Shown piece by piece: positions 8,666-33,133 of a stretch of 54,874 nt of DNA. The stretch spans positions 1 through 54,874 of the forward strand of contig VHDF01000026.1 in assembly GCA_016871495.1 (NCBI GenBank), written 5' to 3'. Below the pieces are notes generated by a model, which was not told where the DNA came from, searched no databases, and saw nothing but the letters and a program-made list of their open reading frames with translations. Both the position numbers and the translations under genes were made by a program. The number at the start of each line of letters is the position of its first letter. Within the stretch, counting starts at the first letter, position 1. The stretch is from Verrucomicrobiota bacterium. GTDB taxonomy: Bacteria > Verrucomicrobiota > Verrucomicrobiia > Limisphaerales > VHDF01.

Positions 8666-10225
8666 ATGCCCCCATCCTTTGATCCAGGTCCGGGACGCTC
8701 GACACGCCGCCGGTTTTTGCAGGGAAGCGCGGCGTTGCTTGCGGCCACTTCCCCTGTCGCCGGCGCGGCTGCCCCGACGCCGGCCCGCACGCGAGGGCTG
8801 ATCGCCTCCGAGAATCGCAAGTCCGGAGCACGGGATTGGCAGCTGACGCGGGTGAGGTTGGACAAGGCCGAGTTTCGTTCTTCCTGGATCGAGGGGTTTT
8901 GCTCGAAGCAAAGTCTACGTGCGGGAGACAGGCTGACGATCATGGTGTCCACCCAGCCGGCCCGGAGGTTTCATCTCGAAATTTTTCGGATGGGTTATTA
9001 CGGCGGGCGCGGAGCCCGGCTCATGCGAGATCTGGGGGTATTTCCGGGCCAAACGCAGCCCACGCCTGCGCCGGGCGCGAAAGATTTGCATGAATGCCGT
9101 TGGGAACCCACCGTCGAGCTGACGATTCCCGAGGATTGGCCAAGCGGGGTTTATCTCGGGCGCATGACCACGCTGCCGGAGTCTCCCGCGGAGGCGTACT
9201 GGCAAAGCTATGTCATCTTCATCGTGCGGGACGAGCGTCCGGCGGACATCTTCGTTCAGTGCTCGGACAATACCTGGCAAGCTTACAATCGCTGGCCGAG
9301 CCGGTATTCGGTTTACACGCATCCCAAGGGGGGACAGGGCCCCTGGGCCGATGTGAGTTTTGACCGCCCGTACGGACGCCAGGCGCAATATCGGGACATC
9401 GTCAATGACCCGCTTTCGGTCGGTTCCGGGGAATTCATCTCGTTCGAGTTTCCGCTCGCTTATTTTTTGGAACAGCACGGTTACGATGTGACCTACGGCT
9501 CGAACAGTGACTTGCTGACGCCGGAGCGGGCCTTGCGCTGCAAGGCGTTCATCAGTGTGGGGCATGACGAGTATTGGGATTTGCGCCAGTTTCGCAGTGT
9601 GGAAGCCCTTCGTGACGCCGGTGTGAATCTGCTTTTTCTTTGCGGGAACTCGGTGTGCTGGGTGTCTCCGTTTCGGGAGAGTTTCGACGGGCGTCCCCAT
9701 CGCATTCTGTTTCGGGGCGGACCCTACGGCGCTCAACAACCCTACGCGGTGGAAAGGGAGCGCGATCACGGCCCTTTCCCCGAGCGGGGGCCGGACGAGG
9801 GATTCCTGATCGGTGCGCGCAACGTGGAGCCTGTCAATGGAGGCGGCGACTGGATTTGCGCCGCGCCGGAACACTGGGCTTTTGAGGGCACCGGCATGAA
9901 GAAGGGCGAGCGCATCCCCGGTCTCATCGGCTGGGAATACCATGGGCAGCCCGCCGAGATCCCGGGGTTGGATGTGATTGGCGCGGGCAGTGCGTGGGTG
10001 TCAGGCGATCGTCCGCAGCAATGGACCTCCACGCTTTATCCAGGTCCCAAGGGAAATTTTGTTTTCAACGCGGCTTCCATTTTTTGGGCTCAGGGATTGT
10101 CGCGGCCTCCGGGGCATACCTTGCCCTGGTCGCATTGGAGCCGACCCCATGGACCTGACGACCGCGTGCAGCGGATCACGCATAATTTATTGCGCCGCGC
10201 CCTTTCCTCGAAGCGTTCAACCTAA
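8666..10225 (+). CDS. Tat-exported N,N-dimethylformamidase beta-subunit-like protein
   Basis: The ATG at 8666 gives 519 residues. The start is fixed by a twin-arginine signal, RSTRRRFLQGSAALLAATS, at about residues 13-31. An earlier ATG at 8507 lies inside the DUF362 gene and would bury this signal. The mature region has PSGVYLGRM, FVQCSDNTWQAYNRW, YDVTYGSNSDLL and AFISVGHDEYWD, which are typical of proteins resembling the large subunit of N,N-dimethylformamidase. In this broad family the substrate is usually unknown. Tat export suggests a folded, probably metal-binding protein outside the cytoplasm. The stop codon is at the edge of a 162-base palindrome. Confidence 0.75.
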   Translation: MPPSFDPGPGRSTRRRFLQGSAALLAATSPVAGAAAPTPARTRGLIASENRKSGARDWQLTRVRLDKAEFRSSWIEGFCSKQSLRAGDRLTIMVSTQPARRFHLEIFRMGYYGGRGARLMRDLGVFPGQTQPTPAPGAKDLHECRWEPTVELTIPEDWPSGVYLGRMTTLPESPAEAYWQSYVIFIVRDERPADIFVQCSDNTWQAYNRWPSRYSVYTHPKGGQGPWADVSFDRPYGRQAQYRDIVNDPLSVGSGEFISFEFPLAYFLEQHGYDVTYGSNSDLLTPERALRCKAFISVGHDEYWDLRQFRSVEALRDAGVNLLFLCGNSVCWVSPFRESFDGRPHRILFRGGPYGAQQPYAVERERDHGPFPERGPDEGFLIGARNVEPVNGGGDWICAAPEHWAFEGTGMKKGERIPGLIGWEYHGQPAEIPGLDVIGAGSAWVSGDRPQQWTSTLYPGPKGNFVFNAASIFWAQGLSRPPGHTLPWSHWSRPHGPDDRVQRITHNLLRRALSSKRST

Positions 10226-10383
10226 AAGCGGCAATTGATCAGCATCGATCTGTCGCCAGATCTTGGCGGCAAAGGCCTTTCTCAAGTTTCAATGGATCAC
10301 CTTGCGGATCCACCTCAACTTTCGGCAGGCCTTTGCCACTCAAGCTTTTGCGCATCTCGACGCTGCTGAATTGCCGTTTCTAG
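10222..10383. repeat. 162-base imperfect palindrome starting at a stop codon
   Basis: The two halves are reverse complements with perfect register about a centre at 10302.5. The innermost stem is TGGATC (10293-10298) against GATCCA (10307-10312) with an 8-base loop. Further out, GGCAATT (10230-10236) pairs with AATTGCC (10369-10375), and a CAAAGGCCT block pairs with AGGCCTTTG. Several differences between the arms would be G-U pairs in RNA. The left end includes the TAA of the upstream gene. No target-site duplication was seen. It could be a MITE-like element or a large bidirectional 3'-end structure between convergent genes. Confidence 0.75.
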
Positions 10384-10420
10384 CATGAGAACTCCGCCGG
10401 GCCGGGGTGCGGAAGGGTGA

Positions 10421-10454
10421 GTAACTTCAGTATCAAGTTAGTCGGGAGGTTCAC
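10421..10454. repeat. Short palindromic repeat, partial copy of the 32990 element
   Basis: TAACTT (10422-10427) and AAGTTA (10435-10440) form a hairpin followed by GTCGGGAGGTTCA. Read on the minus strand, the unit TGAACCTCCCGACT plus ACTTGAT matches the element at 32990-33034 over about 33 bases with four differences. The outer left arm is missing here. It lies downstream of the leftward TPR membrane gene. Confidence 0.6.
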
Positions 10455-32170: not shown

Positions 32171-32992
32171 ATGAATGGGAACCGATCAAATCGCGTAGTG
32201 GCTTCCGGGCATGGCCGGCCCGGAGTGGCTGGTTTTACTCTGATCGAATTGCTGGTGGTGATCGCCATCATTGCGATCTTGGCGGGGATGTTGCTCCCGA
32301 GTCTGGCGCGGGCCAAGACCCAGACGAAAGCCACGGCTTGTTTGAACGCGCTGCGGCAAATGACTTTGGCCACCCGGTTTTATGCCGAGGATTACCGAGA
32401 CCACGTGCCCCCCGTGGTCAATCAAGTCGGGCGGTATTGGTTTCATGAAATCGCCCCTTACATGGGAGACCCGACTTACAAACAGAAGTCGCACGAATCC
32501 AGCGAGGGGGTGATGCGGATCATGGTATGTCCCGTGACCAAGCGTCCCAAACTGAAGCCCGGACGCGATGAATCCTGGTGGGGCACCTCCACGAAGACGT
32601 GGCGGGCTCTTGAGGCCGAGGGAAGTTATGGCATGAATCTCTGGCTCGACAATCAAGGCCAGTATCTGACCGATTTTCCCAAGGAAAAGTATTATCCCCA
32701 ATTCACCGAATCCCCGGCGGACGTGCCGGCCTATGCGGATTCCGTGTGGGTGGGGTCCTGGCCGGAAAACAACGATCGGGTGCCGCTTGACTTCAAAGGC
32801 GGCGGCTACGGCGGGGGCAGTTTTCCGCACGCCAAGGGACAGTTCATGGGCCGCTTTGCCATCATTCGGCACGCGGGCGGCATCAATGTGGCTTACGCCG
32901 GCGGCCACGTGGCGAAAGTGCGGCTCAAAGGCCTGTGGTCGTTAAATTGGCACCGGGATTCCGCTCCAAACCCGAACGTCAAAGCGCCTTGA
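32171..32992 (+). CDS. Second prepilin-type N-terminal methylation protein
   Basis: This 273-residue protein has the same cleavage and hydrophobic segment ([20 protein letters not shown] at residues 21-40) and a conserved RLKGLWSL near the end. The codon use in the hydrophobic core differs from the first copy, so the two are old paralogues and not a recent duplication. The C-terminal part has [17 protein letters not shown], which matches the family end. It is exported and membrane-anchored, and its function is unknown. The stop codon is the first three bases of the 32990 palindrome. Confidence 0.8.
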
Positions 32993-33034
32993 ACCTCCCG
33001 ACTCACTTGATGCTCAAGTCAGTCGGGAGGTTGA
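32990..33034. repeat. Near-perfect 19-bp hairpin repeat overlapping a stop codon
   Basis: The left arm (32992-33010) and right arm (33014-33032) pair at 18 of 19 positions, with a single C-C mismatch and a 3-base TGC loop. The outer part is AACCTCCCGACT against AGTCGGGAGGTT. The TGA stop of the second pseudopilin gene is the start of the element, and no T run follows. A related partial copy lies at 10421-10454. Confidence 0.8.
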
Positions 33035-33133
33035 ATTTGCCAAGACCGCGCTGATTTTCGAAGGTTCCTCGCGCATGACTTCATCAAGGATTTCATCCAC
33101 GTGATCCGGGTGATGGGTCGGCCAATGACTCCC
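33014..33133 (-). pseudogene. Possible gene remnant ending in the palindrome
   Basis: On the minus strand a 39-codon open stretch reads as a plausible acidic, helical fragment, with DEILDEVMREEPSK in it. It ends with TGA inside the hairpin arm. It has no convincing start codon, because TAA lies directly upstream and only an internal GTG is available. It may be the decayed tail of a lost gene, or chance. Confidence 0.25.

Follow-up and report, generated by a model that had tools for sequence, protein, structure and literature searches.

A multicopy palindromic repeat at the 3′ end of a DMFA2_C gene in a Verrucomicrobiota bacterium is probably a miniature element mobilized in trans by an IS1380-type transposase

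The stretch analysed here (the window) is 54,874 nt long and belongs to the metagenome-assembled genome of a Verrucomicrobiota bacterium. It carries a long palindrome between convergent genes, directly at the 3′ end of a gene for a DMFA2_C protein, and a second, much smaller hairpin further downstream. The features are as follows:

10216–10220, no strand: left copy of the target duplication, TTCAA; the consensus at 33 free ends is TTNAA.
10221–10449, no strand: whole composite mobile element of 229 bp, palindrome plus second module; other composites of 226–229 bp have the same two ends.
10221–10383, minus strand: palindromic type-1 unit with the free end CCTAAAAGCGGCAATTG; the best fold is on the minus strand.
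10223–10225, plus strand: TAA stop codon of the upstream DMFA2_C gene, apparently from the element, as judged by comparison of gene 3′ ends.
10384–10449, plus strand: second repeat module AGAACTCCGCCGGGCCGGGGTGCGGAA...AGTCGGGAGG, found at 40 or more genomic places with varied left arms.
10450–10454, no strand: right copy of the target duplication, TTCAC, identical to the left TTCAA at four of five bases.
32989–33035, no strand: 37-bp hairpin CCTCCCGACT...AGTCGGGAGG, the second small element of the window, with TTGAA on each side.

The initial annotation, made from the window alone, described a palindrome of 162 bases (10222–10383) whose halves match in exact register, and this holds: 51 of 81 positions form Watson–Crick pairs, compared with a mean of 21.1 (SD 4.1) for all 162-mers of the window, none of which otherwise attains even 50. 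Folding of both strands, proposed there as a check, gives energies far below those of shuffled sequences—−82.6 kcal/mol (z = −6.25) on the plus strand and −103.4 kcal/mol (z = −8.98) on the minus strand, the better-folding one. The compensating G-U differences that had been pointed out are present but symmetric between the strands, with six G.T on the plus strand against seven A.C (that is, G.U on the minus strand), so that in the window copy they are by themselves uninformative about RNA. The palindrome has no match to any structured RNA family at the Rfam gathering threshold, which speaks against a known RNA family, and the absence of a T run, noted earlier, was confirmed by eye. A terminator or a processed 3′ end finds no support from either Rfam or a T run. 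No reading frame is open in every subfamily on inspection by eye, and the element has no match among plasmid and phage sequences.

While the palindrome is real, the mobile unit is longer than the 162 bases first assigned to it: it spans 10221–10449 and includes the second repeat. Where the type-1 unit is joined to the second module, its right end lacks the last base, and the 66-base module terminates in GTCGGGAGG. The 37-bp hairpin shares its end with the right terminus of the 229-bp composite and is another miniature element. An equivalent composite copy in another contig of the host genome (C40) has TTTAA on either side. The same contig features a minimal element of 28 bp, nearly two ends back to back, also with TTTAA on both flanks (L002:1403-1430).

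The left edge of the palindrome was said to carry the stop codon of the upstream gene, and the TAA indeed lies at 10223–10225. The upstream protein matches the DMFA2_C domain over almost its full length. Insertion was judged against orthologous genes without the element, in lieu of an exact empty site. Homologues in 46 of 97 relatives align nearly to their last residues, and those with a readable 3′ end terminate right after ...RRALR(K) or ...KRALG. In the window, the protein has the tail ...RRALSSKRST, ending at the TAA within the element. The simple reading of this comparison is that the element probably inserted at the 3′ end of the gene and supplied its stop codon.

The copies in the host genome (5.06 Mb) were surveyed by searches and in 463 kb of fetched stretches. 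The 162 bases match 44 places, which correspond to ∼39–40 distinct sites after removal of reverse self-matches. The copies range from full-length ones, the best being 94–96% identical, to half-elements, of which there are many. The second module is commoner than the palindrome, and several distinct left arms precede it, always with the same junction. As units of 164–229 bp, these repeats are dispersed and multicopy, with no transposase gene inside. The 33 aligned free ends read TTNAA, C and CTGGAAACGGC, that is, TTNAA plus CCTGGAAACGGC, the middle base of TTNAA being near random; the free end of the element is TTNAA followed by CCTNRAAACGGCA. Single palindromes have terminal inverted repeats with CCTNRAAACGGCARTTG at each end, and composites have CCTCCCGACT as their right end instead.

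At least five further genomes of the order contain elements of 162–164 bp that share these ends. The genome G082, from another family, contains a full-length relative that is 72% identical and has TTCAA on each flank. With up to three mismatches allowed, G090 has 442 occurrences of the end pattern and the host genome has 69, while the reversed control gives no hit. An exact-match screen of 245 genomes of the order detects the end in 39, with a patchy distribution. The flanks carry 5-bp target duplications well beyond chance: in 44 elements of 158–166 bp, a set dominated by those of G090, flanking 5-mers are identical in 16 (3.8 expected from shuffling), and the middle base of TTNAA agrees across the flanks in 27 (13 expected). 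For the host genome alone, 3 of 20 elements have identical flanking 5-mers (p = 0.07), and the middle base agrees in 12, compared with 5.2 expected (p = 0.001). A single genomic copy without conserved pairing in relatives—the outcome named at the outset as contrary to the first reading—is contradicted in both halves by the ∼39 copies and by the pairing kept in relatives.

To identify a partner, transposases with the PF13701 domain were sought in the 97 relatives, and the fetched loci were then scanned for the element ends. Three insertion sequences (ISs) have the same ends as the element: 1714 bp in G013 with TTCAC twice, 1721 bp in G096 with GTCAT twice, and 1725 bp in G079 with TTCAT twice. 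A related transposase gene with one visible end occurs in G053, from the genus of G090. The transposases of G013, G096, and G053 are 56–59% identical to the G079 protein. The partner transposases match PF13701 (DDE_Tnp_1_4) above the cut-off; their best NCBIfam match is IS1380 (NF033539) with 119–155 bits, below the cut-off of 180 bits, which points to a divergent branch of IS1380. The ends of the partner ISs begin with CCT and are flanked by a 5-bp duplication, as in ISEcp1, whereas the window element itself is gene-less. Only the terminal ∼17 bp are common to IS and miniature element. On the basis of these ends, the duplications, and the transposase type, an IS1380-type IS is the likely mobilizer, and the early suggestion of a MITE-like element is borne out by copy number, terminal inverted repeats, the TTNAA target with 5-bp duplications, and the matching IS ends. 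In neither the host genome nor G090, both fragmented MAGs, was a matching transposase gene found; the element may be an orphan there, or the IS may be missing through an assembly gap or loss. The IS1380-family copy of the host genome was rejected as mobilizer, since its visible end lacks these termini and its C-terminus resembles another branch. This gene is cut by contig ends (C48, L101:2-310; C151, L102), as expected of a multicopy IS in a MAG assembly.

The fold itself was compared between subfamilies. RNAalifold yields hardly any structure for all 36 copies together, since decayed copies prevail and the 162- and 164-bp types differ in register. Subfamily master sequences were used instead of all copies, and the structure was then recovered. 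The seven masters are the consensuses of type 1 and type 2 (both from the host genome) and of G090, together with single elements from G082, G114, and G152 (two). They share one architecture: ∼17 pairs, followed by internal loops about every 10–11 nt. In the seven masters, 27 of 64 stem pairs are altered on both sides and still paired (14.8 in shuffles, 3–7 in slid controls), and 52 cells are altered on both sides (19.2 shuffled, 5–10 slid). Of all cells, 92.9% pair, compared with 81.6% in shuffles and 33–42% with the partner slid. Kin sequences can beat shuffles, and the seven sequences tested are also those that yielded the structure, but the slid controls and the effect size make such an artefact unlikely as the full explanation. 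All seven masters have the same loop of AGAT opposite AGAT, in which tandem G.A mismatches would form, and several further loops have G.A mismatches in most of them.

The main rival takes the arms to be complementary through template switching in replication—the correction of quasi-palindromes, known for bacteria—and the element to be an ordinary MITE without selection for the fold. Such templated correction would produce the dominance of double changes seen between subfamilies, for example 14 against 0–4 one-sided ones for type 1 and G082. It would also remove mismatches, yet loops are co-located in the seven masters, the AGAT/AGAT loop is invariant, and other G.A mismatches persist. Furthermore, left and right arms stay distinct across families, and inserted copies show no sign of correction. 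With the conserved mismatches counting against it, this explanation is rather unlikely, though it deserves serious weight.

Within subfamilies, stem mutations are mostly one-sided and strand-neutral. The private changes at consensus pairs comprise 31 G.U(−), 28 G.U(+), 59 breaks, and 8 double changes in type 1; 11, 13, 27, and 5, respectively, in type 2; and 39, 33, 80, and 8 in G090. This predominance of single, strand-neutral changes indicates that inserted copies decay and that pairing is kept in spreading lineages only. The selection for RNA pairing suggested at first is therefore upheld in part: the fold appears to be selected in the masters, as RNA or as DNA, but not in inserted copies with their one-sided, strand-neutral breaks. 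It is apparently the moving element, not the host, that needs the fold. In the masters, G.U exceeds A.C (30 against 15 cells, 14 against 6 pairs; one-sided binomial ∼0.06, calculated by hand), which is only suggestive of a strand-specific RNA signal. Being slight and absent among private mutations, this signal was rejected.

A host-useful RNA—a long double-stranded 3′ end, an RNase III substrate, or an mRNA stabilizer—selected at each site would account for the strong folding of the palindrome and for the slight G.U excess of the masters. It would also agree with the position of many copies immediately downstream of genes or between two convergent ones (among 15 copies, 5 convergent and 5 tandem according to crude gene calls). 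The neutrality of private one-sided breaks between strands in all three subfamilies, the missing Rfam match, and the many half-elements make it improbable. A REP/BIME element mobilized by a RAYT (Y1/HUH) transposase is more improbable still and was rejected: the host genome has five Y1_Tnp genes, one of them lying a few hundred bases from a related module, but no repeats lie at the other four, the module is common enough for one chance neighbor, and 5-bp target duplications with matching IS1380 ends are not RAYT features.

The preferred reading, to which we assign a probability of about 0.85, is a MITE moved in trans by an IS1380-type transposase, with a composite copy at the 3′ end of the DMFA2_C gene and a full hairpin required by the master. 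The transposase would recognize the ends of the gene-less element and insert it at TTNAA-like sites, with duplication of 5 bp. The window copy, palindrome plus second module, would have arrived in this way and brought the stop codon. Since the fold is conserved between masters and lost in copies, we infer a role in propagation: the propagating master would require the full-length hairpin, extrusion of a hairpin or cruciform could, for example, bring the element ends together, and inserted copies would decay freely. The one-base difference between the flanking 5-mers of the window copy speaks against this reading, as do the failure to find the transposase gene in the host genome or G090 and the small extent, ∼17 terminal bp, of the similarity between IS and MITE. 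Its more specific form—a DDE-driven MITE dependent on a particular full-length hairpin, as single-stranded DNA, cruciform, or RNA, with G.A loops every ∼10–11 nt and selection only in the spreading lineage—is tentative and somewhat more likely wrong than right.

MITEs, IS1380 elements, and mosaic non-autonomous elements are already known kinds. Bacterial MITEs such as ERIC, NEMIS, RUP, Nezha, Chunjie, and QMITE are likewise short, gene-less, and intergenic, with terminal inverted repeats, target duplications, and partial copies, and their transcripts are predicted to fold as here (PMC10969869). To these the window family adds covariation over the whole hairpin between subfamilies, conserved G.A loops, and the loss of the covariation in copies; that review does not name IS1380. 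TIMEs, mosaic non-autonomous Tn3 elements, are also composites of miniature units with 5-bp AT-rich duplications, but have a different transposase family and different ends and are far longer (PMC4133298). REP/GTAG palindromes with their RAYTs are likewise numerous, short, and intergenic, and Opitutus terrae, of the Verrucomicrobia, is reported to be highly enriched in GTAG repeats (PMC3733652); in contrast, the window family, at 160–230 bp, has terminal inverted repeats and 5-bp duplications and shares its ends with a DDE-transposase IS. In the literature covered, which included few subscription papers, neither the window family, nor the link to an IS1380-type IS, nor covariation of an entire MITE between subfamilies was found described. 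The family is an abundant and apparently undescribed palindromic repeat of Verrucomicrobiota tied to a probable transposase. Two properties that tend to be treated as one come apart here: retention of a hairpin by the mobile element and its retention where a copy has inserted. Should movement require the fold, this would be a DDE-type element using folded DNA or RNA.

The exact end TTNAACCTTAAAACGGCAATTG also occurs, with one end each, in a Gallionella MAG (L103:1161-1182) and in Mucilaginibacter straminoryzae (L107:2775-2796). Further genomes contain elements that agree with the family in ends and target type and have different yet complementary arms (L215:301-490, L221:193-369, L222:227-414, L220:254-429, L224:215-405). 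These arms are made of iterons, for example ACCACAGATGGACACAGATTCACACAGATG or ACCGCTAATCTACGCTAATG, and several have a near-central GGTGA-like motif. Iterons of this kind are widespread in bacteria; the literature search gave no match for these iteron sequences, and TTNAA appears in none of the papers that it listed. Together with the window family, the variant-arm elements may form one large class of fold-back MITEs. Within the 463-kb survey of the host genome (L081-L100), two other palindromic groups are seen: a commoner one at 43 places, of 200–400 bp, with the motifs GGTAGGGCG...CGCCCTACC and GCAGGCTGCCCAGCCTGC, and a smaller third group at five places, with the sequence GGAGCGCGGCTGTGTC....
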